Shown: positions 1,164 to 35,393 of the stretch, in pieces
Layout: the number at the start of each line of letters is the position of its first letter
How positions within the stretch are numbered: the stretch's first letter is position 1
DNA from: a virus
IMG/VR virus record: IMGVR_UViG_3300030202_003023
Coordinates: 18,905 to 82,904 of that record
Direction: 5' to 3' (one strand)
Length of the DNA: 64,000 nt
The notes under the pieces: model-generated
Databases searched by the model: none
Told to the model about the DNA's origin: nothing
The model's input: only the letters and a program-made list of their open reading frames with translations
Made by a program: the position numbers and the translations under genes

Positions 1164-4100
1164 ATATCACATCTTTTAAGTATTTCTTCAAACTCTGCAT
1201 TTCTTCTAGCTTTTTCGTAGCTATCTGATAGATTTCTACTTATGCCTTCTCTTAGTGTACTTGCTATTTCCTTAGAGCCAACAAGTCTAAAGCTACTTAT
1301 TGCAGCGGCTGCTTCTTTGTTTAAAGGGTCTATTTTGTTTTCTTCAAATATAGTACCTGAAGAATCAAATATACTAACATTATCATTAGACAATATAGTT
1401 TGTACACCATATTCTTTAATTGCTTTTCCTGCTGAATTAAATCCTAGTTTAGGTATTTGTCTGTATACAGCAGTGTTACTTTTGGTATATCCTACAAGTT
1501 TAAAAAGATTGCTTTTTGAATCTCTTACATATCTTGCATATTCTACTTCACCAATATCATTTTTTCCTATACTAAAATCAGTACTGTTATTTAAAGCAAA
1601 TAATTTATTTGTACTTATCCCTTTACCTAAAGGTTTTTTGTCTGTATTAGGTACTGTTTTTAATATTCTACTATTTTCAGATAAATGTTTAATGATAGTT
1701 TCTTCTGCTTTTTCACCAAGCAATCCAGGATATCCAGCTGCTGTATTAAGATCATTCATAAAAGATACAAACCCTGATTTTATATAAGTATTAGTAGGGA
1801 TGTATTGGTAAAAACTAAATAAGTTTCTGTTAAATCCTGTAGCATGAAAAGCGTATTTTACTAATTCATCTGCCAGTTCTTCATTTACTTCATACAGTTC
1901 TTCCCATGCTTGTTGGTATAGTTCTCTGTCTTGGTTTTTGTTTCTAAACTTAATATAATCTAATCCAATACCAATACTTTCATCTTTAAAAATAATAGTC
2001 ATATCACTTAAAAGAAGGTTATTTTCTACAAAAGTAGGATTTGATCTTTTAAATCTTTCCATTTTTCTGGCGGTGCTTTCTCTACCAAAAAACAAAGATT
2101 TAAAATTACCGTCTGTAATACCAGCTAATTCAGTACTAGCAATATAAGAGTATATTTCATTTGAAATATCATCAATAGCTTTACTGTCATGTATCTTATC
2201 AGGGTTAACTGCAAACAATATATTAAATAAGGTACTTCTAACTGCATTAGATGACATTAAAGACATGTTAGAAAACATTTTGTTTATCTGCTGTATTGCA
2301 TTTTTATGGTAGCTACCTACCATTCTACTGTCATCAATGTTAAGATATCCTCCAGGACCTGTAATTTGTCCGTTTATTTCTACAACTCCAAATGCTTTTT
2401 GTACATTTTCTATTTTATTATCTGCAATAACTTTAGCAAGATTTAATTCTCTTATGTATGCTTCAGTTAAGTTTTTACCTATTGATACATCTGATTTAGC
2501 GGCTCTAATAACTTCATTTAAATCTTTAGCTTTTTCTTTATAGTCAAGAAAAGCAGCTAATATTAAAGCTTCACGTCTTGGAGATGCTGCAAAAGGATTT
2601 TCTACCATTTTTTCTAAATCTTCTAATGATAATTTTCCTATATTTTTTAGTGCTGTTTTTTTGATTTCATTAAATCCGTTTTTAAACGTGTCTATTCCAC
2701 TTTGTTCTAAATCTTCATTTATTTCTAATATAAGCTGATCTTCTCCTAAAAGTCTTCTTCCTTTTTTGTCGTATGATTTTTTTGCAACTTTACTTTCATC
2801 TTTGTTCTTTTTTGTTACCAACCTACGTAGTACAGGTTGTCCAATAAAAGCATTTACCCACTTTATAGGTACTCCTGCTCTTAACAACATAAATGCTACA
2901 GGAGCTGTATAATTATTAATATTGGCTTTTGCTATGTACGGATCTTTAGCTGCATCTACAATAGCGTTCATATACAAACTTAGCCAATTAGATACTACAT
3001 TACCTTCTGTATCTGATATACTTGATACGGGACTTTTACCATCTACTATCTTACCTACACCTAAATACTCAGAGTGTAGTAAATTGTCCATTTGTGTAGA
3101 GTTATGGTGGCTTAAGTGGTTGGCAACAACTCCTACAAGACCTTTAGATTGGTCAAATAGTACTTTAATTTTTCTTTGAGTAGTCCCTTTAAAGAAATGT
3201 AAGTTATTTCCAAATTCTGTGCTTTGGTCATACAGTCCTTTAGCTGCATCTTCCAATACTGGACTATCTAAAGAAGCCATAGCTGATGGATAAGTTTTTA
3301 CATCAGTAAGTAAAGCCTGCATTAAGTCTAATCTATAGTTTTCTAATGCGGCATTAGTATGCCTTTTAATAGCTGGATAATTTTTAAACTCTTCGTAAGT
3401 AGGCATTACCTTTTCTTCTTGTAGTTTAGCTATTACAGCTTTTTTATGAGCATCATTTAACTCTTGTAATTCTTTTTTTATACTTACTATACTATTTTTA
3501 ATAGTTTTAGCATCATCTAAAGTAAACTCATCTCCTAGATCTATGCCTTCACTTATAACGTAGTCTACAGACTTTTGTATTTGATCTGCATATTCTAGTA
3601 ATTCAGTAGAATACAATGCTGTAAATTCTTCTTCATTTGCTATTTTGCCTAAAGCAGCTTTAATTCTAGCTTTTTTAGCAACAAACTTTAAAGCGTTTTG
3701 TATTTTAATCTTTTTTGATTTTTCAGGAGATTCTAGTTCAGTAAAAAGTTCTCTTGCTCTTACTGATTTTAACCAGTCTTTTTTAGTTTTTTCTTCGTAA
3801 GCCTCTTCTACAGTCATTTCATGCTGGTATCTTGGTCTAGTTATTTTACCGTCTCTGTATTCTATATTAGGCATTACTACAAAAGCTTTATCAATATCAA
3901 AGTCAGACCCAGTTTTTGCAGTGATTTCATTGTATGCTATAATAGTATCTCCCATATGACTTGGAAGTATACCTACAATTTCAAAAGAATCATTAGATGA
4001 TGTAGCCTGGTTAGGAATACGGTAACTAATACCTTCAAGTGCAGAAGGATCAATTGCATCTTTTATCTCTTGTGGAGTCATTGACTTGTACTTAGGACCT

Positions 4101-7100
4101 ATTAAATTTAATAAAGCACTATGTGCTATAAGTACTTGAGCTTTTTTAGTGTAAAATACCCCTTCTTTTTCTTCTAGCTTCATTGGACTTAGACCTTCTC
4201 TAGGGTCTTTGAACCATATGATGCCGTCTTTGGTCTCTTTATCTAAAGAAATAGTATCTTGTAAAGTACCAAAATTAGACATTTGTATAAAAGCACCTCC
4301 TGTTTGTTTTAATTTTACAGAAGCTTTTAATACTTCTGCTGCTATTTTGTTTTCTAGTTTTTTTCTAACTGCAGGCATTGCATCTATTGATACTCCTGTA
4401 TCTAATAAAGCTTTTTCAGAATTAGTTAATTCGTCAGTAAGTGCTTTACTTAAAAAATCATTAAATTTTTCTTTGTTTATAGTTCCATTTAAATGAAATC
4501 CAAAAGTCTGCTCTAGTTTATCTTTACCTATTTTAGATAATTCTGAAATTACTCTATGATATTCAGCAACTAACATTTCTCCTGTCATTTGCTGTGTAAT
4601 TCCTCCAAAGTTTACTTCATAAAATCCATTTTTTAATATTTGAGAAAGTAAATTCTTTACTAGCTGAGAACCTACAAGAGTGTCGTCCATCCCTTTAGCT
4701 TTTAAATCTTGCTGTAAGTATACGTACTTAGTCTTTAGTTGAACAAAAGGCATTTCTGCAGCAACTAATTGGTCTCCATCATTTATTTTAGTAACACCAC
4801 TAGCTCCAACTTTTTTACCATCTATAGTCACAAAATGGTCTGTTTCTGGATTAGCTTCTTGTAATGCGTCTAATGCAGCAAACATTCCAGGAACTATAAC
4901 AGCTTCAGACTGTTTATGGTAATGTGTAGTTCTGTGTCCGTGCTTAAGTACAGGCTCAACATGTACAGTTTTTATAGGTTGCATAAATAGCTTAGTGTCT
5001 TGAAATAAAAGCTCTCCGTTTTTTAATCTGTTATAAGCTTCTTCATGTTCATCACTCCATTTAGACCAAGATAACATTCTCTGTCTGTATAAGTCTAAAG
5101 TAATCCAAGCTTGAGCATCTGCAATATTTATGTTTTTATACCCTTTTACCCATTCAGTAATTTCTGCTGCAGTAAGTTGTTCGTCTTTTTCCTTGCCCAT
5201 GTTAAAGGCTTTGGTCATTCTATCAATTAAGGCTGTATTGAGGTTTCTTTTGCTTAATTCAGCTAACATTTTATCTCCAAAAACTACATTGCTAGGTATT
5301 GGAAATTTACCAAACATATCAGCTAATTCTTTTAGACTTTTCTTATTTAAATTAACGTCTGAATTATAAGGTATAATAAAATTTTTATCAGGATTATCTC
5401 TTGCTACTTCATAAAGTTTTTCAATTTCAGTAAGCATTTCTGCTTCATTTTTAGGAGTACCTATTTTTAATCTTCCGTTTTGAACAGACGCATTTTTAGT
5501 TACTAATCCGTATCCAGTACCTTTATTACCTTCAGTTAATCCAACTTCTCCAGCAATAGCAAAATCGCCTACTTTTTTACTCTGAATGTCATTAACTAAA
5601 TTAGGATTCCAGCTACGGTAGTTTTCTGTAGTGTTTGCATAAGCTAAAGCTGCAACACCTTGTCCATGACCGCCTGCTGAATTTGCTCCAAATACCATAA
5701 CATCGTTTTCTCCAAACATTTCTTGAGAAACTTGGTCTTCAAATGCAGGAGCAGTCTGTTTTGTTTTTCTAGGAAAAAAATAAGCTGAAGGAGCAATAAC
5801 TTCATCTGTAACGCTTGTAGTATAGGTAGGTTTTACATCACCATAAATTCTAGACATAGTACCCCCCGCATTAACAAAAGATGCTCTCTTTTTAAAATCA
5901 GAAAACAAATCTAAAGGTTCTCCTGTTTCCTTGTTAGTTTTAGGTTTAAATCCAGCAGGATCACCGTGGAATAACATAGTCATTTCAATACTACCAATTA
6001 TACTATTTAGAGTATAATCTGCAGCAGCTTCTCTTATGTCATCATATCTAGCAGCAACAGTAGTATCAATTGCTTTATTCACAGCAACTACTTTTTCTCC
6101 TTGCTGTGTAATGCTAATAACATCAACTTCTTCTAATACTTGTAAATCACTTTGTACAGCATTTACAAAAGCTCTTCTAATTCTTAGCCTAAGTTCTTTG
6201 TTGTTACCAGTTTCTTCTGTAACTTTTTTTGCTACTTTTTTACCATTTATAGTTTCAACTAATCCTAATTCTTCTAAAAGCGTTTCTCCTTCTTCGTTAG
6301 TTTTACTAAATTCAGGAAACAAATAGGATTGTAATAAATTTCTGTCTGTATGTAAGTATTCTATGTACTCTGATTTATCAATTTTATTTTCACCGTACAT
6401 ATTTTCATAAATTAACCTCATCCTGGTTAATTCAGCTTTAAAGTACTCCATTAAAATATTAACAGCATTGTCATTACTAACTGTTATTTTTCCTTGTTCG
6501 TTAAAAGTTAATCCAGCTTTTTCAAACTTACCGCCTTTCATAGCAACTTGTTCCTGCTTATCTGCTTCTGCAATACCTGTATAAACAGCCGTTTTATTAT
6601 CCATTAAATGAATATTTACATCAGCTATAATTGCTTCTATTTCAGAAAGTTTACTAACTTTTATACCTTGGTCTCCTTTATCAAGACTTTTAAAATTATT
6701 AAAAACAAAAGTTCTTATTTTTCTACTTGGATCTTCTTCCATCCAATTTAAAGTTCTAGAAATTGAACTCCAAACAGCACTTCTTATTTCACCTGAAGCT
6801 TTTTCAAAGTCAGTATTAAGTTCATTTACTAGTTGTGAAATTAAAGAAGGGTCACTATAAAGTGAATATTGATTACCTTCTGGACCTAATGTAGTAGCGT
6901 CACCAAAATTAAACATTACTTCACCTTGTCTTATTGCTAAAGTTGTTATTATTTGGTTGTCTTCTATTACGTTATTTCCTTTTCCTTGCTCTATAATTGT
7001 ATCACCGTAAAGTACTATTTCTTCTTTTTTAGCTGCTATATCATTAAACACTCCTTGCATTTCTCTACTAGTCAGCATAGCATGTACAGACATAGCAGTT

Positions 7101-8284
7101 GTAGCATTGCCGTATTCTTTTCTTAAAAAATTATTTAATCCAGGAGAAGTTAGTTCTATACCTATTACTTTATTAAAAAACTCTATGACTTTACTTTTAA
7201 GTACTTTAACGTCATTTTCACTTACAGCATTTCTTCTACCTGGTTTTTTTTCTTTTGTTTTTAATTTTTCAACTTCTTCTTTTAACTCAGCATATCTTTC
7301 TAAAATAGTTGTAAGTCTACCTCCTTTGTCACTTTCTTGGTAAAATGTCTTACTACCAACATCATTACCATTAATCATCTTAAAATTTTGAAACCACTCT
7401 TCTTTTAACATTTCTGTTTTAGATGAAGGATCAGAAGTACTTATTCTATATTTTCTACCTTCTTCTGCTTCTTCAGTAACTAGAGTTAAATAAGATACAG
7501 ATGCGTTAGCAAATACATTAAAAAAACTTGTTCTTAATTTTTCATCAAAAACTTGTTCTTCTTGTTTATTGATGATTTTTTGTTTTAGTCCATCTACTAC
7601 TCTGTTTAAATGTGGTTTAACTTTACCTTCCTCTTCTAGTAATTTAATCATTTTACCCAAAGTAGGATTGGCCATATCTGTTAAGATGGTTTGTATATCA
7701 TTATACATTTGACCTTCTTCAACAAACTTAGGTGTCCCTAAAAATGTATCTGTATTGTTTACAGTTCCTCCTTTTGCACTTTTGACTTGTTCAGGAATCA
7801 TTGAAATAAATGCCCTTACTTGTGCGCTAGCTTTGCTTTTAGTAGTTAGAGTTAGTTTATTTTCTGTAAAAAAATTACCGTCTTCATCTTCTACTAAAGA
7901 TTCAGATATTGAAATTCCTTTTGATTTAAAAAACTTTTTAACTTCTTGTACAAAGAAAGGAACCATTTCTCCTACTTCTTTAAATCTATCTCTATAAACA
8001 CTGCCTGCAGGCTTGCTTGCTGATGCTTTTAATACCCAGTCTGTTAAAAGCTCTGTAAGATCCATATCAGCAATAGCTTCAACATTTCTACCTGCTGAAA
8101 GGTATACAAAGTATGCACCAGAATTAGTTATTTCTTTTTGCTGCCCACTAGTAAAACTAGAATCTACAGTGTAAGTAATTTCTCTTTGTAAATTGACTCC
8201 CCTTATGTCATTATCCCTTAAATAATCTTTAAGTTCATTTTGATTTTGGAACTCTTTTCCTTTGTAATTTATAACACATTTCAT
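1160..8284 (-). CDS. Virion-packaged DNA-dependent RNA polymerase, crAss-like type
   Basis: This 2374-residue protein contains GSDFDIDK with aspartates at about D1461, D1463 and D1465. That DFDID motif is the catalytic metal-binding loop of the single-chain double-psi beta-barrel RNA polymerase packaged by crAss-like phages; the studied example is gp66 of Cellulophaga phage phi14:2. Length is in the range of that family. The motif lies about 60 percent along the chain, flanked by long helical regions. By homology it would be ejected with the DNA and transcribe early phage genes before any new protein is made. It lies at the distal end of the late region, just downstream (in transcription) of the 4113-residue cargo protein with a 39-base gap, and its TGA stop overlaps the next ATG. 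Start ATG at 8284. The call rests on the motif, size and position. Confidence 0.85.
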   Translation of the reverse strand: MKCVINYKGKEFQNQNELKDYLRDNDIRGVNLQREITYTVDSSFTSGQQKEITNSGAYFVYLSAGRNVEAIADMDLTELLTDWVLKASASKPAGSVYRDRFKEVGEMVPFFVQEVKKFFKSKGISISESLVEDEDGNFFTENKLTLTTKSKASAQVRAFISMIPEQVKSAKGGTVNNTDTFLGTPKFVEEGQMYNDIQTILTDMANPTLGKMIKLLEEEGKVKPHLNRVVDGLKQKIINKQEEQVFDEKLRTSFFNVFANASVSYLTLVTEEAEEGRKYRISTSDPSSKTEMLKEEWFQNFKMINGNDVGSKTFYQESDKGGRLTTILERYAELKEEVEKLKTKEKKPGRRNAVSENDVKVLKSKVIEFFNKVIGIELTSPGLNNFLRKEYGNATTAMSVHAMLTSREMQGVFNDIAAKKEEIVLYGDTIIEQGKGNNVIEDNQIITTLAIRQGEVMFNFGDATTLGPEGNQYSLYSDPSLISQLVNELNTDFEKASGEIRSAVWSSISRTLNWMEEDPSRKIRTFVFNNFKSLDKGDQGIKVSKLSEIEAIIADVNIHLMDNKTAVYTGIAEADKQEQVAMKGGKFEKAGLTFNEQGKITVSNDNAVNILMEYFKAELTRMRLIYENMYGENKIDKSEYIEYLHTDRNLLQSYLFPEFSKTNEEGETLLEELGLVETINGKKVAKKVTEETGNNKELRLRIRRAFVNAVQSDLQVLEEVDVISITQQGEKVVAVNKAIDTTVAARYDDIREAAADYTLNSIIGSIEMTMLFHGDPAGFKPKTNKETGEPLDLFSDFKKRASFVNAGGTMSRIYGDVKPTYTTSVTDEVIAPSAYFFPRKTKQTAPAFEDQVSQEMFGENDVMVFGANSAGGHGQGVAALAYANTTENYRSWNPNLVNDIQSKKVGDFAIAGEVGLTEGNKGTGYGLVTKNASVQNGRLKIGTPKNEAEMLTEIEKLYEVARDNPDKNFIIPYNSDVNLNKKSLKELADMFGKFPIPSNVVFGDKMLAELSKRNLNTALIDRMTKAFNMGKEKDEQLTAAEITEWVKGYKNINIADAQAWITLDLYRQRMLSWSKWSDEHEEAYNRLKNGELLFQDTKLFMQPIKTVHVEPVLKHGHRTTHYHKQSEAVIVPGMFAALDALQEANPETDHFVTIDGKKVGASGVTKINDGDQLVAAEMPFVQLKTKYVYLQQDLKAKGMDDTLVGSQLVKNLLSQILKNGFYEVNFGGITQQMTGEMLVAEYHRVISELSKIGKDKLEQTFGFHLNGTINKEKFNDFLSKALTDELTNSEKALLDTGVSIDAMPAVRKKLENKIAAEVLKASVKLKQTGGAFIQMSNFGTLQDTISLDKETKDGIIWFKDPREGLSPMKLEEKEGVFYTKKAQVLIAHSALLNLIGPKYKSMTPQEIKDAIDPSALEGISYRIPNQATSSNDSFEIVGILPSHMGDTIIAYNEITAKTGSDFDIDKAFVVMPNIEYRDGKITRPRYQHEMTVEEAYEEKTKKDWLKSVRARELFTELESPEKSKKIKIQNALKFVAKKARIKAALGKIANEEEFTALYSTELLEYADQIQKSVDYVISEGIDLGDEFTLDDAKTIKNSIVSIKKELQELNDAHKKAVIAKLQEEKVMPTYEEFKNYPAIKRHTNAALENYRLDLMQALLTDVKTYPSAMASLDSPVLEDAAKGLYDQSTEFGNNLHFFKGTTQRKIKVLFDQSKGLVGVVANHLSHHNSTQMDNLLHSEYLGVGKIVDGKSPVSSISDTEGNVVSNWLSLYMNAIVDAAKDPYIAKANINNYTAPVAFMLLRAGVPIKWVNAFIGQPVLRRLVTKKNKDESKVAKKSYDKKGRRLLGEDQLILEINEDLEQSGIDTFKNGFNEIKKTALKNIGKLSLEDLEKMVENPFAASPRREALILAAFLDYKEKAKDLNEVIRAAKSDVSIGKNLTEAYIRELNLAKVIADNKIENVQKAFGVVEINGQITGPGGYLNIDDSRMVGSYHKNAIQQINKMFSNMSLMSSNAVRSTLFNILFAVNPDKIHDSKAIDDISNEIYSYIASTELAGITDGNFKSLFFGRESTARKMERFKRSNPTFVENNLLLSDMTIIFKDESIGIGLDYIKFRNKNQDRELYQQAWEELYEVNEELADELVKYAFHATGFNRNLFSFYQYIPTNTYIKSGFVSFMNDLNTAAGYPGLLGEKAEETIIKHLSENSRILKTVPNTDKKPLGKGISTNKLFALNNSTDFSIGKNDIGEVEYARYVRDSKSNLFKLVGYTKSNTAVYRQIPKLGFNSAGKAIKEYGVQTILSNDNVSIFDSSGTIFEENKIDPLNKEAAAAISSFRLVGSKEIASTLREGISRNLSDSYEKARRNAEFEEILKRCDI

Positions 8285-8323: not shown

Positions 8324-11300
8324 TTAACAACGCTTTTTAGTAATATTGTTTACCTGTTCAATCACTCCAGCTTGCATCATTAAGTCAATGCTTTCTGCTT
8401 TATTAAACTTACCTTGCTGTATTTTATCAAACAAAGTTTTATAATTTTTAGGTCTTTGTATTATCTCTTTTAACCAAGTAAATAACCTTTTAAATAAATT
8501 TTCATGTTTAGTTTTAGGCGTTATTGCTTTATAAGTTTCAGGATTTTTCATAAACAGCGCAAATTCATCAGCTAGTTGTTCTTCATAAAAAAGACGTATT
8601 GCATGTTCTCTACTTGCTTTGTGTCTTTTTTGGAAGTCTTCAATTTGCTCTTCAAGTGGCCCTAAAAACAAGCTTTTAGCTTCTTCTATTAGTTCTGACT
8701 GCTCTGCTTCAGTTAAAGCTGTTCTAAATATTCCGTGAAAAGCTTCATGGAAAGCGTCTCCAGTTTTTGCTAATGTGCTTATTTTAATCATACTATCAGT
8801 AAACATACCTACAACTCTTCTTCCTCCAGAAAGTAATCTTAAGTAATCTTTAACTACTTCTACTTTCATATTTTCAGGAACTATTTCTTCAACTTTTCTA
8901 ATTTCTTCTTCAGTTATAGGAGTAGATTCATCAACTGCTTCTCTAACTTTAAACGCTTCATCAGTATTAGGCGTTTGTTTTTTTGATTCTGTTGATTTTT
9001 TAAGCGCATCAAGGTTGCTTAATGCTTCATCAATACCTGATTGTTTCTTTTCTACAGCTTTTAATAAATCAGACACATCTCCAACAGGATTACCGTCTAA
9101 TCCTACATCTGGAGTATGTGTTATTTTGTTATCTTCAACACTTATGTGCTCTTTACCGCTAGAACTATTAGCAGTAATAGAGTAACCTAAAACATCATTT
9201 GAAGGAGTGTGCTCAATACTTGTTTTTAAATCTAATACTTTTGTTTTAGTATCATTTTCTTCATATTGTAACTGTATTGGAATTATTTCTAAATTTTTAG
9301 CCAATACTCCGTATGTTTTATACATTAACATTCTGTATAAAGAAAGTTGTTCTTTATGTTTCTGTCTTTCAGATTTAATTTTACCGTTTAAAGTACTGTC
9401 ATATTTAGCTGTTCCAGGGTCACTTTTATAACTTTCTTTTAGTCTGTTACCTTTTTGACCCTTCATGTCATAAATTCTCCAAACACCTTTATTATCTATT
9501 GTGATAAGATCAGTAGTACCAGCTATTCCCATTTCAGTGTTATGTAACGTTATTTCATCAGAAACTACATGTTCATTATTAGCTTCAAATCTACGTCTTA
9601 ACACTTTTAACTGCTCTATAAATCCTTCAAACTCTTCTTTATTTGCAAGTTTGTAATGTGTGTGTGATTTTAGTTTTTCATTAAAGAAATCTCTAACTAC
9701 TCTATCAACTTTTCTACCTAAAGCTGCTCCTGTCTCCATAATAGCTGTACGGTTTGTAGTAGGAGTTACTATTTTAGATACTCTAATAAGTTGTAAAAAC
9801 TTAGTATCTTTTCCAGGTATATTTTTATGTATATAGAAATCATCATTCTCATTTTCTAACACAACAATTTTAGAGTCTGCGCGCATTTTTTCTAAGATTG
9901 CTAAAGATTCAGCTGGAATAGCTTCCATCTCTACCCTAATTTTTTCTAGTTCAATACCTAGCTTAGCTTTAATGTATAAGTCTCTTTGATTTAATGCTTT
10001 ATACTCTCTTTCTAGTCTATCTATTTCTGCGTCAATTTCTTCAATATTTGTATCTTCTCTTCTTTTTCTTCTAAATAAGAAAAGCACTCCCGCCATTCCT
10101 ATTTGAGTACTATCTTTTGGAGATAGTGGAGAATTTTCTTGAAGATTATTGATTTCTTTTGTACCTAAGTAAACATCAACTTCTTCTGCGTATTTAAGTA
10201 CATTAGTTACGTACTCATTAGTTACTTTTTCACCTTTAAATACTTTTGCAGCTGTTTTACGCTGATTAGAATAAAGTAGAGGAAGTATGGTTTTAAATTC
10301 ACTTTTACGTGTAGAAGGTGTTTGGTTAACGTAGATATCTAAAAGTATACCCATAGTAGCCAAAGCAGAGTTTCTGTTATTGTAATTACCGAAAAGATCT
10401 TCAGTTTTATTTATATTAAACTTTTTTCTTACTTTTTTAGGTACACTAAATATTCTTGTTTGGGTAATACCTACAGAAGGTGTACGAGTTTCTCTACCTG
10501 TAATTCTATTTATTTCAACTTGTGCCCTATCTCTAAGTAATCCTTCATGTCCTCTAAGTCCTCCATAAGTACCAAATGAAGATTCTTGTCCTAAAATACC
10601 ATAAGCTAATGTTGCAATTTCGTTGTATATATCATTAGATACAGTTGGGAACATCTGCATTAAATCAGATTTGTGATTTGCAATAGTTTGTATGTACCCT
10701 TTTATGGTTTTTTGTGTTTCAGGAAATTCGTGAAACTGTGATAAATTATTTGCTTTTATTGTAATAGGCTGAGATTCAAAAGAATAAGGAGTTCTATTTA
10801 CTAAACTATCTCTGGATCTGAATACTAACTCATTATCAACAAATTCAAATTTGTTATTTGGATTGTCAGGCAATACATAAACTTTAGAATTAGGAGCCAA
10901 TCCTCTAGCGTCTAAATCTTCAAGAGATTTTACATTAAAATTAAAACACCCATTACTAAACCTGTTGTTTGTACTGTCTTTGTCATTTAATTTTCTTTTT
11001 CTTACTACACTGTTAGGTACTTTGTGTAAAATAGATGGAACATTAAGCCCCCCTTCATTCTTTAAAAAGAAAGCCTTATCTCCTTTGTATTTACCTTTTC
11101 TGTCTATTGTGTAGATTCCTGCACCTGTTTGCTTATTACCTTGGGACCAGTTAGTTTTAGAAGTATAACCATCTCTTAAATACCTAGTACCGTTTTCTAG
11201 ATATGTGGCTTTTTGCAAACCAACTTCTACTCCTGAAGAATTAAAGTAAGCGGATTTAAGTGTGGTTTGCTTATCCCCCTCAGCTGATCCTGTACCTACT

Positions 11301-14300
11301 TGGTAACTAGTAACCAGTTCTCCGTCTTCATACAAGTGAGCTATTCCTACGCTTTTGTCTACAATAACATATGGCGCAGCTGTGTTTTCATTAGCTTTTG
11401 TAATTTTAGTTACATTGTCTAACTTATTTAACTCATCTTGAGAAAGTTTTACTGATGTAAAAGACTCTAAATTATTTACTACTAAATTATCATAGCCGTA
11501 AGTTCCAACTTGTTCATTACGTACACTGAAAGATGAGGTAGATACTAATGTAGCTGTAATTAAAAACCCTATAAGCATGTTTTTAATAGCAGAAGCAATT
11601 CTTTGTAAAAGGCTAGGCTTTTTAGGAAGTGCAGATTTAGTGTTCATTTGAGACACTATTTCATCTTTAAGGGCTGCTCTAACTTCTTCTTTAGAAGAAA
11701 GATTTTCTTCAGCCATTATCTGCTTAATTTCTGCATCAGTTAGATTACTATCTAAAAGAGCCTCTAAAGTTTTTTCATGTTTTACAGCTTTTAATTCTTC
11801 TAGCTGATTAGTTATTGTTCTTTGTCTTTGTGATATACCTTCCTGTTCTATTTCTAGAGCAGCACGTCTAAGTTTTTCTTCTTTACTTTTAACTTCTTCC
11901 TTTTCTGCTCTATCAGTATCTTGCGCTTCTAGTATTTTTTCATTAAAGCTAGTTAAGTCTTGTCTAGTTAATACAGCATCAGTTAAAACATCTAATACTT
12001 CTTGGTTTGTTAATTTACTAAGTATCCACTTAGCAAACTTTTGCCACCATTTAAGCGCTTCTCCTACTTTACCTGTTTTTACAAATTCAACAGCTTGCTT
12101 ACCAATAGCTTCTACTAAAGCTTCTTCAGATCCAAATCTTTTTATCCCTTCTTGTACAATAGGAGAACTACGCCACATTCTTATATAGTGGTGTGCATAT
12201 TCATGTGGTAAAGTGTCTTGCTTTTGATTAGCTGCATCAATTAATACAGTAAGTGCTTCTATATTAGCTTGTCCTACAATTTTACCAACAGCATCTCTTT
12301 GGTATAGCAGTGGGGCCGTTTCTTCATAACCAGAAATATCTACTCTATAACCTCCTGTAACAGTACGCCTGTCTTGTGTTCCTGAAGATTCCCAACTAAT
12401 AGTACCGCTTCTATTTAATCCAGGTATTTCTTCTACATATTGTAATTTAACTCCTGGTATTTTTTTAAGTGCTAAGTACATTACACCTACTTTTGTTGCT
12501 AATCCTTTTTTAACTTCTTCTGGACCTGCGTATAAAGCAGCTGATCTTTCGCTACCTTGTGTTAACATAGTAGCTTGCTGTCCTGTAAAGTAAATAGGAA
12601 AGTCTTTACCTTTTTCTTTAATAACGCTTTGTATTAGTTTGTGAAATAATACATTAGCATAAGTAAATTCAATGTTGTTTTTATCTTTAGTTATTGCTTC
12701 AATTTTTTTTCTTTTAGCTTCAATGTTTCCTTCTAATTCTTCTTTTAAACTATTGTACTCTGTAAATAATTTTTCAAAAGTAGCTTCTATTTCTTGATCT
12801 GATAAAGCAGCATATCTATTATTAGCAGCAAAGTTTTTATTTCCTATTACAGCATTTAATACTTCTTGATTATCTAATTTTATTCTTCTAACAGCTTCTT
12901 TTCTTATTTTAGCTAAAAGAGCAGCAGCAAATTGTTTTCTAGATTTAGCAAAAAGTCTAGCAGGCATCCTTCCAGTTTCTAGATTGTATGTATCTTCTTC
13001 TAAATTACTACCGCTTTTAATTTGGTATGCTACGCCTCTACGTAAAAATTGATCTACACTTATTTGAGTTTGTGGGTTTTCTTCTAAATATTTTATTTTT
13101 ACTTCTTTGCTTTCAAATAAAAGCTCTCCAGGAACTAAGTAGTCAAGACTTGTTTCATTATCATAATAATCTAAAACTACATTAAACCCTTGTAATAAAT
13201 CTGAAATTATATTTGCATTAACTTCTTTTGATACTCTAATGTTTTTTGTAAGACCTTCAGGTAAATGCTTGTCAACAATTTCATTTAATTTTCCAGATTG
13301 TTGCACTTCTTTTAAATGTCTTAAAAACCTTTTAAGGTTTTCTCTTCTAACTTTTGCTATTTCTACACTTTTTTTATTGTCTTTTATTGAGCTGCTTAGT
13401 AAATTTACTCTTTCTGCTATTCTTTGTCTATATGCCTTAATTTTAAAGTTCTTATCCCAGTTTGTTAAATCTTGGATAGCTGTAGATTGATCAATTCCTG
13501 TATTTTCCCAATCTCTTACTTCTTTTAGTACGTCCTCAAAAGCATCCATTAAAAAAACTGGATATCTTTTTATTTCTGACATTATCCTTATATAGTCTCC
13601 AATTCTTATTTTATTAGGGTCCTGTTCTTTTACACTTTCTCTTAACCTTTCAAAAAAATCATTCTGTATTTCATGCATTAAAACAGCGTCAGGAGCAAGT
13701 GCGTCTTGATAACGTTCTTTATCACTTTCCATTTCATTTATAAAAGCCATTTCTTCTGATAAAGGCATTCCTTCTGTACTTTCTTCACTACTAAGAGGCT
13801 TTGAATTAAAGTAAGTGATGTTACCCCAAGCAGATGGAGATAGAGGAAAATGAGAGTGCATGTTAAAAAACTCATCATTATATCTTAATGATACTTTTCT
13901 GTGCCTAACGCCTGCTGTCCTGTTAAATGTTTGATCTAGTCTGTAAGTTAAATACTGTTTTTCTTGTGCAAACCCTAAAACAAAACCTGCATCTAAAAAT
14001 ACTTGAACTTCTTTAATAAAGTCTTCAGCTGTAATGCTTTTTAGTTTAGGGTTGTCTACTTTAATACTTTCTCTGACAGTGTTTAAAATATTTAATTCTG
14101 GTCCTTTAACACCATCAAGTTTTATAGGAGCTGATAAAGCTATTCTTTGTTTTTTATATTTTTCAGCTAGTATTTTAAAAGACTTTAGCCCTGCACTTTC
14201 TTTTGTATATTTATTTTGTTTTTCTAAACTTTCTATTTCTTTATCTGTTAATTTAATTTTTCTAAGTTCTACTCCTTCATTAGCAACACTCCTTATTGCT

Positions 14301-17300
14301 TTTTGAATAGATTTTTTAGAAAATCTAGTAGGAGTTGTAAGCCTGTTTATTAGCTTTTCATAATACTCCCTAGCTTTCATTTCTTCAATCTCATTAGTAC
14401 TAGCAAAATCCAATACTTCTTGATTAAGTACAGAAGTAGATTCAGTTTCCCAAACAGGATTTTCAGCAATAGTTAATGTAATTTCAGGATAGAGTTTTTC
14501 AAATAGATTTTGTAATTTTTTACCTAATTCAATATCAAAATCTTCTCTTTCAGGATAAGCTTCACTAACATCTCTACTAGTTTCAATAATACTTTCTGTA
14601 CTACTTGTGTCTACTACTTCAGTAGTTTCTAGAGAAGTAGGCTGTCCTAATTCAGTAAAAATACCCTCTTTAGTGTTGTTAAGAGAATTTAATAAACCTA
14701 TTTTACCTTGTTTCTTTTCTCTCTTTTTACCATTTTGGTCTATATAGCTTGTAGTAACACTGTCATTATCTACAGCCACTACTGTAACTTCAATAGTTCC
14801 ATCAAAGTTCCAATTAAATTTATCCCCAACTTTAAAGTCTTTTCTTGTTCCTGGTTTTTGTTCAGTAGTTGTATCAGTTGTAGCTTGGTTTTCTTCTGCA
14901 AGTTTATTTAAACCTATCAAAAGCTTTTTCTCTAAGTCATAGCTTGCGTCAACTTCTTTACGTAAATTTTGCTTTGCAATATCCAGACTATGATATATAA
15001 TCTTATTACTAAATTCAAACGTAACTTTATCACCATCTTCAAATTCTATTGATATAGGATCACCTAATTCTTTTAAAACATATTCTTTAGCTTCTTGTCT
15101 TTTTTCTTCAGATATATTTGTAGGATTAAAATTATAACCTTCAGTAGCTGTATCAGTTGTAGTTTCTTCTGTTTCAGTTACCTCTTCTTTAGTAACTTCT
15201 TCTGATTTAGTTTTAAAATTAAAACCGCTTGCAGAAACTGAAGAATCTGCTATTTCTACTTTACTAAATAAAACTGTAGGCTGTTTAAATAAATTAGATT
15301 TACCATCACGGTTTTGTTGTAATCCTTCTTTAACTGTAGTTTGAACTAAGTTATTGTTAACTATAAAGGCTTTATATACAGGGTCTGATAATTTATCTAT
15401 ATTAATTTGTCTTCTTTTCTTAGACAATGCTCTTACAAATGATTCTTTACCTTTTTCAGTTAGAAATACATTTGTAGGTATCCAAGTACCGCCTGCTTGT
15501 ATTCCTGCAGGGCTAGACAAAAGCCTACCCCCGCCTAATGTTTTAGTATACTTACCTTCAAATACTAACATTGATAGTAAATCTTGAAGTGAAGTAACTT
15601 CAACATCTACTAAATCTATTAATCCAGAAATTCTTTTATTACTTGATGTTTTTATATAATTTAATAAATCAGTGTGTTTACTTAAAGATTCTTTGTAAGT
15701 GTTTTTGTCTTGTAAAGTCTTAACGTATATGTCATAAATTAAATTAATTTCTTCAATTATAAGGTCTGGAGTAAATAGTCTTAATGGAAAAGCTTCTCCG
15801 TTACCTCTTTGTACTAGCGCATATATAGCTCCTGGAGTAGAAGAAACGTTATCTAATTCCTCAACTTTGTTTTTATTAGAGTCTATATAAATACCTGTTT
15901 TTTGTCCTGGCGCTGCTTTAGCTCCAGCTATAAATTTAATATCTTCAGGAACTACATTTAAAACTAATTCAAGGTTTTTAAAATACCTTTCATTTAAAGG
16001 GTCTTTCATTAATGTACCAGACCTTTGCCCTTCAAACTCTACATACGCTTGTTTACCTGTGTATACAGATTCAATTACTGCTTTTTTAATTTCTACAACT
16101 TCTGCTCTTGCTATTTCCTGCTTATCTTCTGGAAGACCGTACCACCGCGGAAAAGTAGTATCATGGACTTCCATGTTTAGCTTAACTCCATTTACTAATA
16201 CTCTTTCTCCTTTTTTATTTATAATTGCCCCTCTTACTGGAACTATCCCAAGTTCTTCATCTGTAAGAGGCTCTTTGTTTTTAATTTTGTTTGCTATAAT
16301 TGATTTTTGTGAATCTTTTTTAAATTTAGTTGCCCACTCTTCAAGTAGTACAGGGTCTACATAAAGCTGTGCACCGTAATCTTCAACATTTATATTAGGG
16401 TCTTCAAAAAACTGAGTTAAAGCTATAGCTTCTTCAGGGTTTCTAAATAGACTTTTGTCTTTTGTATTTTCTAAATTTGTTGATCTCCAAGCTATTCCGT
16501 ATCCTGTTTCAACTATAAAGTTAGGACCGTCTTCTATTTCAGTGTTAATTTCATCATTAGTAGGATTATTAGGAGTACCTATTTCAGTAGAGACTGCAGT
16601 AACTAATACATCATCATGTTTTATAGTATTTTTTCTGTTTTCTTCTTCTCTCTTTTTTGCAATTCTTTCAGCTTGCGCTATTAAATCTGATGCGTCTGTT
16701 GCTTCTTCTTCAGCAATACCTTCTTGTACAGCTTCAGGAGTAACTCCTTCACGTTTAGCTTTTGCTTCTTCAGCTTGTTTTATTAAGCTTGATACATCTC
16801 CTGCTTCTTCTTCAGGAATTCCAGTGTTTTTATTAGATTTTGGTTTTGATCCTACGCTTACTGTTACTTCAGCTGTTTGTACTTTTTTACCGTTTTTATT
16901 TATTTGCGGTTTTGTAACAAAAGTTATAATTTCTTTACCTTCTTCAATTTCATCACTAGGAACAAAAGTTGCAATAACTTCCATACCCTCTTTGTACTCT
17001 TGTCCTTCTTCTATAGATGTTTCATAGCCTTCAGCTTCAAGTTCTTTTTCTATTTTTTTAATTGTATTTTTTTGGGCTTCTGTTAAAACTGCTCCCTTTG
17101 CTACATTCGTGTTAATTCTGTTTATTATATTTAATTTTTCTAAATTAGTCTTTGCTTTGTTCAGCTTTTCAAAATCTCTTTTTATTTGCTTTTCTCCTAT
17201 TTTTTCAGTTTTTGTAGACGGTTCTTCAGCTTTAGCTTCAATTTTACTAGGAGCTGCTTTTATTCTTTTTGCATAATCACTTTTTATAGCTTTTATGTCA

Positions 17301-20300
17301 TTATCTATTTGACCAAGACGTTTTTTAATTTCAGCAATTCTATCAGCTTTGTTGATACTAAAATAAGTAGCATCTGCAGTTTGTGACGCTGCTTCTCTTG
17401 CTTCAGTATTAGCCTCTGAAACTAATTCATTAAATACATCATATACTTCATCAAAAGCTGTTTTGCTTATTCCAAATAAATCAGCAAAAAACTGCTTTAT
17501 TTTACCTAATAATGTTTTAGCTCTTTTAGATTTTACACCTTTTAATTTTTCAACAAACTTAGGATTAGCCAATTCTGCAAGAAGTTCATCTATATTATAC
17601 GTACCGTACAAATTAATATCTGTAAAATTGTACATATCAAATGCACCTAATACTTCTTGAACTTCTTTAAGTATACTTTGTAATCTTTTAACTGCCTCAA
17701 TTTGTTTTTTAGTAAGTTTAGAAAGCTCGTTTTTCTTTACGCTATCTGTTATATAAGCCGTAACCCCATGTATAAATTCATGCAGTATAAGTCCACTTAG
17801 TTCTGATTTTAAATTTGATTTTTTATTAGAAACTTGATACCCAAAGAATGCAACATTTATGTATATTTTATTTTCTTTGAGTTCAAATATTCCAGCTGCA
17901 TTTTTGCCAGCTTTAAAATCTGTAGCAAATTCTACTTTAACCCCTAATTTATTAGCAGTACCTTTAATTAAATTCCAAAGTGTTTTACTTAACCCTGATA
18001 AAGACAGCTTATTGCTTATTTCATCAGCTGTGTATTCTTTATTTGTTTCTATTCCATATTCAAGAAGCTTTTTTTCTCCTATTTTAGCATTTTCTTTTAT
18101 ATCAAATTCTTCTTCTACTTCTTCCCTTATCCAACCTTTTTTACGTTCTAAAGTTTCTTTAATCTCTTCTTCACTAAAGCCTGCATCTCTAAACTCATTT
18201 TCAATTTCTTCTTTTTCTTCATTAAGTCTTTTTTCAACTTCTTTTTCTATAGCGTCATTAATAGATTTTTTAGGTCCTGTTTTTTCTTCTTCTTCTAATT
18301 TTCTTAATTCTTCTTCTAAGGCTTGACGTTCTTTTTCAAGTTCATCTATTTTTTCATCACGCTCTTCTTTTAGACCTTCTTTAGTTTGTTCTGTTTCTTC
18401 TTCTGGTTCTCTACCAGTTTCTTCACCTGTAGGACCTGTCTTTTCTTCTTCAGTTTCTTCTGTTGTTTCTTCTGTTGTTTCCTCTTCTGCTGTAGTACCT
18501 GTTTTTTCTTCGTTGTTTCTAGAATTGTTTACAGATTCATTTGCTGCTGCTTCTTCTTCTTCTGAATAAGCGGCTGCTGCGGCTGCTGCTTCAGCTTCTG
18601 CTTTCTTTTTAGCTGCTTCTTTAAACGCGTCTTCTACTACTCTATATGCTTTTTGTCCTTTTTTACTTGTAAGCTTAGCTAGTTCTTTATTATTAGCGTC
18701 TATTAATTCATTTAATAAGATAATTTGCATTTGATGCCCTACAGCACCAGCAGAGTTTACTGCAACTTCGTTTAATATTTTATTATCATCTTGTGCGTCT
18801 ATACCTAGAACACGCTTTTCATCAGTCTGTTCTCCTGTTTTAAATGATTCATCTTCTTTTAAGAATGCATCATACTTAGCTTTTTCTTTTGCTAAATCAT
18901 TTTCAAGCTTTGCTTTTCTTCTTTCAAGTTCTGCTACATGTGCAGGAGCTTCTGCAATTTTTTCATTAATTGCTGTTTCTGTTGATTGAATTGCAGATAG
19001 AATTGCACTTATTTTAACTAGATTATCTAGCTTTTCTTTGCCTCTAGTACTTAATTCATTAAATCTTGGGATGTTCGCTCTTTCTTTTATAAGACCGTCT
19101 TTTTGCTTAGTCAAATTATCAGAATAGTACCTGTTCCAGTATTGGAATGAAGTAATAGGTCTTACTGTACTAGGCTGGTATTTTCTTCTATTTCTTTTAT
19201 AGTCTTTTGATACTTTGGCCATTTCACCCTTCATTCTAACTAATCTTTCTCTATAGTTAGGAGCAAAGGCTTGCTTTTCTTCTTCTGTAGCATTGTCAAT
19301 AGCCTCAATTAAATTGTCAACACTTGCTTGACCTATTGGCTCAGTACCGTTTTCAGCATGTGTAAAAGCAACGTTAAAAGCATTTTCAGCTTCAACTTCT
19401 TGGGCCATTTTTTCATCGTTATTTAACAATGCGCTGTTTAACTTCATACCAGCAGCGGTCATTTTTTCAAACCCTTCTTGTGCTACTCTTATTTGTTCTT
19501 CTTCTCTTTCTCTTTCTTCTTTACCGCCAACAAGAGGAAGATTTGTTCTTTTTAATCCTGCTCTACTTGCTTGCATTACTCCAGCACCTAAAGCACCAAA
19601 TAACGCACTAGTCCACAGTTCTCCACTCTTCATGTATTTACTGTAGCGATCTCCTGCGTCTTCTTTGGATATAAGACCTGCATCTGCAAGTGCGTGATAT
19701 CTACTTTCTTCTCCAACTATGTGCTGATAAGCTTCTTCAGCACCTTCAGTAAGCATATCAAAACCATACATTGCACCAATTTGTGCTCTATTAAGCATGA
19801 TTTTTTGATTAGCCATTCCAGCTAACTTAGGGTTTGAAAATTTTCCAGCTTTACCAAAAACTCCAGCACCTATTGAATATTGAAATATATCTTGAAGTAT
19901 TAAATTGTAGTTCTTTACGTAAGTTCTACTAGCTGCTTTTGATGCTAAATAGTTAGCTTCATCATAACCTGTACCTCTTTGAAATGCTTCATTTCTTACT
20001 CTTTCCCAAAGCTGATGGCTTTCCATCATGTTTTCCATGTGTCTAGAAACAAAAGCTTGTCCAAAAACAGACATTCCTTTCATTACTGCTGCTCCTTTTA
20101 CACCTTTAGCAGTAAGACCCAGAGCTTTACCTATCATTCCTAAACCTCTAATAGTACCTACTGCAGGTATCATAAGTGAAAGTGTAGAACCTACAGACAC
20201 ACCATTACTTAACCACCAACCTAAACTACCTTCATCTTGTGCTCCAAATATTGGAAAGTGTTCTCTAGACCCTTCTTTCATTGAAGTACCTAAATTAGAT

Positions 20301-20665
20301 AACCAGTTACCCCAATTAGTAAGATCTTTGTTATACATACCTCGCAGCCCTTCAATGTCTCCAAGATAACCAACGCCTTCAATTATACCTCCTAACACTT
20401 CTGCCCCTAATTGTGCACTAAAGTTTTTCCATTTTTCTGGTGCGCTTTGTGCTTCTCCTAGTTTGTAAGGAAGATCTCCAGAAAATATATTTACTTGTCC
20501 TCCTAACTTTTCTGCTACTTTTTCAAAGTCAACTCCACCAGTCATTTCTTTTACTTCTCCTGGAAGTAAAGAAGGACTTGTTTTAATTATACTTTTTCTA
20601 GAAACGTTCTTTGCGTATTCTTCTGCTAGTTTATCGTGTAATCCTAGTTTTTTATTATCTCCCAT
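8324..20665 (-). CDS. 4113-residue multi-enzyme virion cargo protein (three HExxH motifs, L,D-transpeptidase-like, lytic transglycosylase-like, Cas4/RecB-like nuclease)
   Basis: The N-terminus (about 1-380) is rich in Gly/Ala hydrophobic helices that could insert in or cross membranes. Residues about 560-870 are acidic, low-complexity coiled coil. Enzyme-like segments follow: HEFIHG at H962 (zincin); HEYAHH at H2821 (zincin); a hydrophobic segment near 3020-3050; an L,D-transpeptidase (YkuD)-like segment with SNGCF and cysteine C3240; a soluble-transglycosylase-like segment with GQESSFG (candidate catalytic E3361) and SVGITQ; a PD-(D/E)XK segment of Cas4/RecB type with GTTDL, then YDMKG (D3733) and a QLSLYR helix; and HEAFHG at H3973 with a later EEQLADEF helix that could give the third zinc ligand. 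The gene sits between an 887-residue cargo protein and the RNA polymerase. It is probably packaged and ejected, attacking peptidoglycan and host proteins. Activities are inferred from motifs only. ATG at 20665. Confidence 0.8.
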   Translation of the reverse strand: MGDNKKLGLHDKLAEEYAKNVSRKSIIKTSPSLLPGEVKEMTGGVDFEKVAEKLGGQVNIFSGDLPYKLGEAQSAPEKWKNFSAQLGAEVLGGIIEGVGYLGDIEGLRGMYNKDLTNWGNWLSNLGTSMKEGSREHFPIFGAQDEGSLGWWLSNGVSVGSTLSLMIPAVGTIRGLGMIGKALGLTAKGVKGAAVMKGMSVFGQAFVSRHMENMMESHQLWERVRNEAFQRGTGYDEANYLASKAASRTYVKNYNLILQDIFQYSIGAGVFGKAGKFSNPKLAGMANQKIMLNRAQIGAMYGFDMLTEGAEEAYQHIVGEESRYHALADAGLISKEDAGDRYSKYMKSGELWTSALFGALGAGVMQASRAGLKRTNLPLVGGKEEREREEEQIRVAQEGFEKMTAAGMKLNSALLNNDEKMAQEVEAENAFNVAFTHAENGTEPIGQASVDNLIEAIDNATEEEKQAFAPNYRERLVRMKGEMAKVSKDYKRNRRKYQPSTVRPITSFQYWNRYYSDNLTKQKDGLIKERANIPRFNELSTRGKEKLDNLVKISAILSAIQSTETAINEKIAEAPAHVAELERRKAKLENDLAKEKAKYDAFLKEDESFKTGEQTDEKRVLGIDAQDDNKILNEVAVNSAGAVGHQMQIILLNELIDANNKELAKLTSKKGQKAYRVVEDAFKEAAKKKAEAEAAAAAAAYSEEEEAAANESVNNSRNNEEKTGTTAEEETTEETTEETEEEKTGPTGEETGREPEEETEQTKEGLKEERDEKIDELEKERQALEEELRKLEEEEKTGPKKSINDAIEKEVEKRLNEEKEEIENEFRDAGFSEEEIKETLERKKGWIREEVEEEFDIKENAKIGEKKLLEYGIETNKEYTADEISNKLSLSGLSKTLWNLIKGTANKLGVKVEFATDFKAGKNAAGIFELKENKIYINVAFFGYQVSNKKSNLKSELSGLILHEFIHGVTAYITDSVKKNELSKLTKKQIEAVKRLQSILKEVQEVLGAFDMYNFTDINLYGTYNIDELLAELANPKFVEKLKGVKSKRAKTLLGKIKQFFADLFGISKTAFDEVYDVFNELVSEANTEAREAASQTADATYFSINKADRIAEIKKRLGQIDNDIKAIKSDYAKRIKAAPSKIEAKAEEPSTKTEKIGEKQIKRDFEKLNKAKTNLEKLNIINRINTNVAKGAVLTEAQKNTIKKIEKELEAEGYETSIEEGQEYKEGMEVIATFVPSDEIEEGKEIITFVTKPQINKNGKKVQTAEVTVSVGSKPKSNKNTGIPEEEAGDVSSLIKQAEEAKAKREGVTPEAVQEGIAEEEATDASDLIAQAERIAKKREEENRKNTIKHDDVLVTAVSTEIGTPNNPTNDEINTEIEDGPNFIVETGYGIAWRSTNLENTKDKSLFRNPEEAIALTQFFEDPNINVEDYGAQLYVDPVLLEEWATKFKKDSQKSIIANKIKNKEPLTDEELGIVPVRGAIINKKGERVLVNGVKLNMEVHDTTFPRWYGLPEDKQEIARAEVVEIKKAVIESVYTGKQAYVEFEGQRSGTLMKDPLNERYFKNLELVLNVVPEDIKFIAGAKAAPGQKTGIYIDSNKNKVEELDNVSSTPGAIYALVQRGNGEAFPLRLFTPDLIIEEINLIYDIYVKTLQDKNTYKESLSKHTDLLNYIKTSSNKRISGLIDLVDVEVTSLQDLLSMLVFEGKYTKTLGGGRLLSSPAGIQAGGTWIPTNVFLTEKGKESFVRALSKKRRQINIDKLSDPVYKAFIVNNNLVQTTVKEGLQQNRDGKSNLFKQPTVLFSKVEIADSSVSASGFNFKTKSEEVTKEEVTETEETTTDTATEGYNFNPTNISEEKRQEAKEYVLKELGDPISIEFEDGDKVTFEFSNKIIYHSLDIAKQNLRKEVDASYDLEKKLLIGLNKLAEENQATTDTTTEQKPGTRKDFKVGDKFNWNFDGTIEVTVVAVDNDSVTTSYIDQNGKKREKKQGKIGLLNSLNNTKEGIFTELGQPTSLETTEVVDTSSTESIIETSRDVSEAYPEREDFDIELGKKLQNLFEKLYPEITLTIAENPVWETESTSVLNQEVLDFASTNEIEEMKAREYYEKLINRLTTPTRFSKKSIQKAIRSVANEGVELRKIKLTDKEIESLEKQNKYTKESAGLKSFKILAEKYKKQRIALSAPIKLDGVKGPELNILNTVRESIKVDNPKLKSITAEDFIKEVQVFLDAGFVLGFAQEKQYLTYRLDQTFNRTAGVRHRKVSLRYNDEFFNMHSHFPLSPSAWGNITYFNSKPLSSEESTEGMPLSEEMAFINEMESDKERYQDALAPDAVLMHEIQNDFFERLRESVKEQDPNKIRIGDYIRIMSEIKRYPVFLMDAFEDVLKEVRDWENTGIDQSTAIQDLTNWDKNFKIKAYRQRIAERVNLLSSSIKDNKKSVEIAKVRRENLKRFLRHLKEVQQSGKLNEIVDKHLPEGLTKNIRVSKEVNANIISDLLQGFNVVLDYYDNETSLDYLVPGELLFESKEVKIKYLEENPQTQISVDQFLRRGVAYQIKSGSNLEEDTYNLETGRMPARLFAKSRKQFAAALLAKIRKEAVRRIKLDNQEVLNAVIGNKNFAANNRYAALSDQEIEATFEKLFTEYNSLKEELEGNIEAKRKKIEAITKDKNNIEFTYANVLFHKLIQSVIKEKGKDFPIYFTGQQATMLTQGSERSAALYAGPEEVKKGLATKVGVMYLALKKIPGVKLQYVEEIPGLNRSGTISWESSGTQDRRTVTGGYRVDISGYEETAPLLYQRDAVGKIVGQANIEALTVLIDAANQKQDTLPHEYAHHYIRMWRSSPIVQEGIKRFGSEEALVEAIGKQAVEFVKTGKVGEALKWWQKFAKWILSKLTNQEVLDVLTDAVLTRQDLTSFNEKILEAQDTDRAEKEEVKSKEEKLRRAALEIEQEGISQRQRTITNQLEELKAVKHEKTLEALLDSNLTDAEIKQIMAEENLSSKEEVRAALKDEIVSQMNTKSALPKKPSLLQRIASAIKNMLIGFLITATLVSTSSFSVRNEQVGTYGYDNLVVNNLESFTSVKLSQDELNKLDNVTKITKANENTAAPYVIVDKSVGIAHLYEDGELVTSYQVGTGSAEGDKQTTLKSAYFNSSGVEVGLQKATYLENGTRYLRDGYTSKTNWSQGNKQTGAGIYTIDRKGKYKGDKAFFLKNEGGLNVPSILHKVPNSVVRKRKLNDKDSTNNRFSNGCFNFNVKSLEDLDARGLAPNSKVYVLPDNPNNKFEFVDNELVFRSRDSLVNRTPYSFESQPITIKANNLSQFHEFPETQKTIKGYIQTIANHKSDLMQMFPTVSNDIYNEIATLAYGILGQESSFGTYGGLRGHEGLLRDRAQVEINRITGRETRTPSVGITQTRIFSVPKKVRKKFNINKTEDLFGNYNNRNSALATMGILLDIYVNQTPSTRKSEFKTILPLLYSNQRKTAAKVFKGEKVTNEYVTNVLKYAEEVDVYLGTKEINNLQENSPLSPKDSTQIGMAGVLFLFRRKRREDTNIEEIDAEIDRLEREYKALNQRDLYIKAKLGIELEKIRVEMEAIPAESLAILEKMRADSKIVVLENENDDFYIHKNIPGKDTKFLQLIRVSKIVTPTTNRTAIMETGAALGRKVDRVVRDFFNEKLKSHTHYKLANKEEFEGFIEQLKVLRRRFEANNEHVVSDEITLHNTEMGIAGTTDLITIDNKGVWRIYDMKGQKGNRLKESYKSDPGTAKYDSTLNGKIKSERQKHKEQLSLYRMLMYKTYGVLAKNLEIIPIQLQYEENDTKTKVLDLKTSIEHTPSNDVLGYSITANSSSGKEHISVEDNKITHTPDVGLDGNPVGDVSDLLKAVEKKQSGIDEALSNLDALKKSTESKKQTPNTDEAFKVREAVDESTPITEEEIRKVEEIVPENMKVEVVKDYLRLLSGGRRVVGMFTDSMIKISTLAKTGDAFHEAFHGIFRTALTEAEQSELIEEAKSLFLGPLEEQIEDFQKRHKASREHAIRLFYEEQLADEFALFMKNPETYKAITPKTKHENLFKRLFTWLKEIIQRPKNYKTLFDKIQQGKFNKAESIDLMMQAGVIEQVNNITKKRC

Positions 20666-34802: not shown

Positions 34803-35393
34803 TTATCGTTTTATCTTAGTATACACATGTACATTGTGTGTCTTTTGTATTATATCATAACCATATCCAAACATAAATCCTTTTTTGGGGACTCTAACTA
34901 TTGCAGCTGGTTGTAATGTGAATGTGGCGGGATTTCCGCCAACTACACCCCCTACATATAATTCCCAAGGATCTTTTATTATTGTTTTATTGGTATTAAT
35001 CTGCTGTTTAAATGTATCTGTTTTATAAATATATTTAGGAAACTTTGATACATATTTAAAATCAGAAGAAAGTAGTTCTCCTTTTACAACTGAAGTAAAT
35101 TTTCCAGAGATTAAAGAGTCTTCTACTGGAGTTGTATAAAAAGAAACGCTATCTCCTGTTGGAGTAACGCTATCTTTTATATACTCAATTACTAATTCTT
35201 TGTGCCATTTAGTGATAGTATCATGGATAGTATCAGGCTTACCTTTAACATATTGTACTACTGTGTCTGTTTCTATAATAACATTTGGTTCAGTGTCTTT
35301 ATTAAAGGTATTTTTAGGTTTTGTACATTGCCTAAACAAACAAAACCCTAAAGTAAATATGACTGTAAGTAATATGTAGTCTTTAAAGTCCAT
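34803..35393 (-). CDS. Membrane-anchored lysis-associated protein, candidate spanin
   Basis: A 196-residue protein with one N-terminal membrane segment (YILLTVIFTLGFCLF, about 6-20), then a periplasmic-looking Thr/Asp/Lys-rich stalk (25-110) and a C-terminal beta/Gly-rich part (YVGGVVGGNPATF, FMFGYGYDI). Its ATG overlaps the TAA stop of the endolysin gene (TAATG), so the two are translationally coupled. Inner-membrane anchor plus long stalk plus beta end, next to endolysin and a holin candidate, suggests an outer-membrane disruption protein of the spanin kind. There is no lipobox, so if it is a spanin it would be a single-protein type. Function inferred. Confidence 0.5.
   Translation of the reverse strand: MDFKDYILLTVIFTLGFCLFRQCTKPKNTFNKDTEPNVIIETDTVVQYVKGKPDTIHDTITKWHKELVIEYIKDSVTPTGDSVSFYTTPVEDSLISGKFTSVVKGELLSSDFKYVSKFPKYIYKTDTFKQQINTNKTIIKDPWELYVGGVVGGNPATFTLQPAAIVRVPKKGFMFGYGYDIIQKTHNVHVYTKIKR

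Follow-up and report, generated by a model that had tools for sequence, protein, structure and literature searches.

The window analysed here, a stretch of 64 kb from the record of an 89.7-kb virus, encodes the crassvirus major capsid, muzzle, ring 1, ring 2, auxiliary capsid and cargo-1 proteins together with a P22-type portal, and its capsid protein shows no more than 41% identity to those of the listed named phages. The 12-kb single gene described in an earlier note, which had been made from the letters alone, is a real open reading frame, and it lies on the minus strand (Table 1). The gene order, running from muzzle through cargo 1, the cargo 2 position and gp47 to the RNA polymerase (RNAP) subunits, is that of crAss001 gp44–gp50, and the giant gene sits between the cargo protein genes and the RNAP genes, as does a gp47-type cargo gene. 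Its product also has the conserved N-terminal module that is common to crAss001 gp47, crAssphage gp45 and cr127. The 4113-residue protein is an orthologue of crAss001 gp47 and crAssphage gp45, the Crassvirales virion cargo protein, and the description of the locus as that of a crAss-like phage with a giant cargo protein beside its polymerase is borne out by the gene order, by the N-terminal module and by the gp50 match and DFDID motif of the adjoining gene. Mass spectrometry identified crAss001 gp47, gp49 and gp50 in virions, and gp47 has been assigned to the capsid cargo zone (PMC10172136); from this orthologue we infer that the protein studied here is itself packaged and is injected with the DNA.

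Residues 913–1003 of the RNAP subunit encoded at 1160–8284 form an A1S_2505-family segment (NF049995, 1.4e-8), under the cut-off of that family. Elsewhere in the window, a glycosyltransferase family 25 gene overlaps the gene for a collagen-like protein (42911–43663 and 43548–46529, both minus), the product of which is possibly a glycosylated fibre.

Table 1. Features of the giant cargo gene and its surroundings, in window positions; residues are those of the encoded protein.
Feature	Position	Strand	Basis or remark
RNA polymerase subunit, gp50-like	1160..8284	minus	matches crAss001 gp50; DFDID motif at residue 1461
Giant cargo protein gene, gp47-family	8324..20665	minus	4113 aa, ATG start, single open frame
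Zincin-like module 3, residues 3896-4091; HEAFH at 3973, second-helix E (EExLAD)	8393..8980	minus	family conservation, AF2 topology
PD-(D/E)XK nuclease, Cas4/RecB type, residues 3615-3821; D3719, D3733, K3735	9203..9823	minus	PF12705, PHROG 298, model
SLT/lysozyme-like module, residues 3291-3500; E3361, SVGITQ 3397, YSNQ 3465	10166..10795	minus	homologue motifs, profile comparison
YkuD (L,D-transpeptidase-type) domain, residues 3098-3251; H3214, S3237-N-G-C3240	10913..11374	minus	PF03734
Single strongly hydrophobic (transmembrane-like) stretch, residues 3023-3045	11531..11599	minus	hydropathy scan
Zincin-like module 2, residues 2785-2925; HEYAH at 2821, GSEE	11891..12313	minus	MT835645, L080 homologues
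Module, residues 2166-2739	12449..14170	minus	N-terminus of RNAP chain in L003
Crassvirus module, residues 1363-1778	15332..16579	minus	also in G012, L003, L005, G019
Zincin-like module 1, residues 930-1107; HEFIH at 962, E in LLAELANP	17345..17878	minus	bajarodcaudo virus homologue
Conserved N-terminal module of gp47 family, residues 64-504	19154..20476	minus	profile matches in 15 proteins
Cargo protein 2 position, gp46-like, 887 aa	20681..23344	minus	position; G012 homologue at equivalent place
Cargo protein 1 (crAss_CARG1), 1233 aa	23304..27005	minus	PF25725 3.5e-16
Muzzle	27267-31595		
Peptidase M15_3 gene	35393-36076	minus	2.1e-13

The motifs on which the earlier note had built its list of enzyme-like modules are all present at the residues claimed: HEFIH at 962, HEYAH at 2821 and HEAFH at 3973, SNGC at 3237–3240, E3361 followed by SVGITQ at 3397, and DMK at 3733. 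Their counts lie above those in shuffled versions of the protein with its composition preserved, in which three or more HExxH motifs arose in 0.05% of cases, the strict order E-S...SxG[ILVM][MT]Q...Y[NS] in 0.4%, and S[HN]GC in 0 of 2000. Scanning the protein against Pfam in segments, the check that the note had proposed, placed the YkuD and PD-(D/E)XK modules above the curated cut-offs, whereas the SLT and zincin modules fell below them. Weak matches to DUF5700, ThrE and Cation_ATPase_N were set aside.

The YkuD assignment was sustained both by profile and by conservation. In the segment scan the domain matched PF03734 with an E-value of 4.3e-5 (24.5 bits, against a cut-off of 23.4), a search of the virus's own genome also placed it above the cut-off, and it has the catalytic histidine and the S-x-G-C motif of the family. 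Directly N-terminal of it lies the transmembrane-like helix, the only one in the chain. The YkuD domain and the SLT-like module that follows it occur elsewhere as a separate protein, a 626-residue LysM-YkuD-SLT-like chain (LysM PF01476, 7.7e-12) that is encoded close to the MCP gene of another crassvirus (contig G073, L156:6558-8435). This homologue aligns with residues 3070–3498 (blastp E-value 2e-35; 35% identity in a global alignment) and keeps H3214, SNGC, QE/E3361, GxTQ and YxNQ, and its YkuD segment scores 36.4 bits against PF03734.

The transglycosylase-like claim stood in part, with moderate support. Its motifs are kept in the L156 homologue, but Pfam SLT gave no match to the isolated segment or to the corresponding segment of that homologue. 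Comparison of a two-sequence profile, made from both segments, with the SLT profile gave a P-value of 3.9e-4 and a probability of 36%, with a full-length alignment that sets catalytic glutamate on catalytic glutamate, and its score of 31.2 exceeded the maximum of 23.3 reached across 60 column shuffles. The lone segment compared with a six-sequence SLT profile was not clearly above chance, its score being equalled by 12 of 200 shuffles, and when a segment from G019 was added to the profile the support fell to the E-S motif only (P-value 1.4e-3). We describe residues 3291–3500 as SLT-like, without assigning them to SLT/GH23; the module probably works like a member of that family. A single-sequence AF2 model of residues 3040–3520 had a pLDDT of 33 and was discarded as uninformative.

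In the relative MT835645 the distance from the HEYAH of zincin-2 to the start of the nuclease profile is 168 residues, compared with 828 here, or about 660 fewer; the cassette has therefore been inserted here or lost in MT835645. Peptide-pattern scans of viral contigs and genomes for YkuD-SLT or zincin-2 found no relatives. The reading frame of MT835645 (L012) reads through TAG, with 21 TAG, one TAA and no TGA codons, consistent with the TAG recoding of crass-like phages.

The Cas4/RecB-like nuclease proposed for D3733 was confirmed at the levels of profile, residues and predicted fold. Residues 3652–3784 score above the cut-off of PDDEXK_1 (PF12705; 22.5 against 22 bits), the module matches the PHROG 298 exonuclease (1.3e-7), and it is present in 10 family proteins, which retain its D-x-K and Q motifs. 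An AF2 model of the nuclease together with zincin-3, built on an alignment of 50 sequences, has pLDDT values mostly above 90 across both modules, joined by a disordered linker. Its PDB matches comprise Cas4 SSO0001 (best E-value 1.7e-3), RecE, MGME1, Exo5 and lambda exonuclease, with TM-scores that are low because the query contains two modules, and its matches among viral structures are crAss-like structural proteins and PD-(D/E)XK proteins. The predicted fold comes with the D...D-x-K...Q-x-x-Y residues.

Outcomes for the three HExxH modules were mixed. Each has, in alignments with crassvirus relatives, its HExxH motif and a conserved later glutamate, but none rose above any Pfam zincin cut-off; module 2 scored 16.3 bits with SprT-like, against a cut-off of 25.6. 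Module 1 shares about 31% identity with a protein of the bajarodcaudo virus in which HELIH and AELANP are kept; module 2 is 45% identical to its counterpart in MT835645 and has a further homologue in L080 (iE 1e-34); and module 3 is conserved family-wide, at dozens of crassvirus loci, and is present in nine of the related chains compared. The AF2 model of module 3, with an N-terminal helix, three strands, a HEAFH helix (model residues 369–373) and a helix bearing the conserved EE (424–425), agrees in topology with the published description of the metallopeptidases of polyvalent proteins (PMC5512222). The best 50 PDB matches listed for the two-module model are all to nucleases. We regard all three as zincin-like, their catalytic activity being predicted. 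In L003 the equivalent of residues 2166–2739 and a decayed zincin-3 (HExxH replaced by YQSGFH) precede the RNAP. Zincin-3 is fused to the RNAP in G012 and L005. The borders between gp47 and RNAP modules shift among relatives (L033:10488-17477, L003:18254-28567), zincin-3 lying at the RNAP N-terminus in G012. Matches of the zincin-1 profile at residues ~600–720 of crAss001-type proteins come without HExxH and were rejected as coiled-coil drift, and an origin of the three zincins as recent duplicates was unsupported, the alignment of modules 1 and 3 covering 24 columns only.

Wall enzymes recur in crassvirus cargo proteins, as judged from profile matches. A PF03734 search of 74 other crassvirus-side records, many of them fragments, gave two above the cut-off (G073 and G067) and one more that was weak, and most relatives of the 4113-residue protein are without YkuD-SLT. 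In G067 it is cargo protein 1 (L154:11540-15844) that contains an embedded YkuD (PF03734, 1.6e-6), together with DUF6321, and the cargo protein 1 of the bajarodcaudo virus has a tail lysozyme (PF18013). The gp47 orthologues of G019 (L035:11775-18026) and G015 have an SLT-like segment (PF01464, 17.6 bits, below the cut-off), which is N-terminal there but internal in the 4113-residue protein. In the window, a part of cargo protein 1 (26040–26132, minus) weakly matches PG_binding_1 (E-value 0.031, below the cut-off) and is also SleB-like; such a peptidoglycan-binding motif could aid docking at the wall.

The reading that we favour, and hold to be somewhat probable, is that the protein is an injected, polyvalent piece of cargo which has acquired a cassette for cutting peptidoglycan and uses that cassette at entry. 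The helix before YkuD, the recurrence of wall enzymes in cargo and the proposal of Iyer et al. that polyvalent proteins use domains of this kind to break through peptidoglycan during invasion, with zincins processing the chain (PMC5512222), together support a putative action in the periplasm at that stage. What we infer for packaging, ejection, topology, timing, activity and self-cleavage would run as follows. The protein would share the phage head with the virion RNAP and be ejected into the cell before the DNA, and the transmembrane-like helix would keep the YkuD-SLT pair in the periplasm during ejection. There the SLT part would cleave glycan strands and the YkuD part would cut or rearrange stem peptides, so that the RNAP, the DNA and what remains of the chain could pass through the opened wall. 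The zincins may then cleave the chain itself or host proteins, and the nuclease would act on DNA in the cytoplasm. YkuD enzymes often make crosslinks instead of cutting them, which counts against a wall-cutting role. Polyvalent proteins and T7 gp16 offer analogies that make the 'all-in-one entry machine' of the earlier note plausible. An extension of this scheme, in which the three zincins would split the periplasmic enzymes (helix, YkuD and SLT) from the cytoplasmic ones (nuclease, zincin and RNAP-associated) after ejection, seems to us unlikely; if true, a single gene would equip two compartments of the cell with a complete set of entry enzymes.

GenBank names the gp47 orthologues as RNA-polymerase subunits, and this, the fusion of zincin-3 straight to the RNAP, which ties the block to transcription, and the absence of YkuD-SLT from most relatives would all fit a protein that serves mainly as an accessory to transcription and in host takeover, with every module intracellular and the cassette a chance pick-up without a role in entry. 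We consider this rather unlikely, because the cytoplasm offers wall enzymes no substrate, the catalytic residues of both YkuD and SLT are kept relative to a 35%-identical homologue, and other crassviruses have wall enzymes in their cargo proteins. Were the cassette instead to serve late lysis or wall remodelling while the protein is being synthesised, the position of the gene in the structural/late block and the helix ahead of YkuD, which could export it, would be explained; however, the M15 peptidase gene at 35393–36076, a likely endolysin, is a separate and better candidate for the lysis enzyme, cargo orthologues are packaged in virions (PMC10172136), and the helix is internal (residue 3023) and the sole one in the chain, which makes such a late function distinctly improbable. 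The contig is metagenomic, and no second contig was found that spans the YkuD-SLT junctions, which lie at window positions of about 9866 and 11788, as might be expected of an assembly chimera of unrelated genes; but the 12.3-kb frame is uninterrupted, G+C content is alike across the modules (0.28–0.38) and the modules flanking the cassette are joined in identical order in MT835645, and we give a chimera very little credence.

Returning to the injected cargo protein with a gained cassette, we can compare it with known systems. T7 gp16 is an ejected internal virion protein with an SLT domain for entry; that domain is N-terminal, whereas the YkuD-SLT pair falls within the last third of the 4113-residue chain, a difference that speaks against the entry reading, and to our knowledge gp16 has no YkuD, zincin or nuclease. 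The closest counterparts, crAss001 gp47 and crAssphage gp45, share gene position and N-terminal module, and crAss001 gp47 also has the PD-(D/E)XK and zincin-3 modules, but they are of 1957–2341 residues with one HExxH each, and no YkuD or SLT match was found in them. The mix of modules, which the earlier note called unusual, is only partly so: protease plus nuclease is standard for the gp47 family, as the related chains show, large proteins associated with transcription having already been described with a PD-(D/E)XK domain (Yutin 2021) and the crAssphage orthologue being labelled in GenBank as an RNAP-associated protein fused to a zincin protease. Only the YkuD-SLT pair is unusual. YkuD is rare among phage lytic proteins, with 10 entries in PhaLP (PMC8310338); the structural study of crAss001 mentions in its text neither peptidoglycan nor a wall-cutting cargo enzyme (PMC10172136); and we found no report of the pair within a crassvirus cargo protein in the literature searched, which took in a minority of subscription journals. 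The stand-alone homologue in G073 has the same pair with the same catalytic residues, but as a shorter chain with LysM. The YkuD-SLT pair, occurring both within cargo and as a stand-alone gene of the virion block, is a concrete candidate for the means by which crassviruses cross the wall of Bacteroidota, and its catalytic residues are testable.

Polyvalent proteins combine many unrelated enzymatic domains per chain, among them one to five zincin-like metallopeptidases and wall-attacking domains, and have a link to the virion RNAP (PMC5512222). The protein described here likewise holds several disparate enzymatic domains in a single chain; it differs in that YkuD is not mentioned in that account, the RNAP is encoded by the next gene and the zincins lie below the Pfam cut-offs. 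Crassvirus cargo would thus follow the polyvalent-protein plan, offering a case of how multi-tool entry proteins get assembled.
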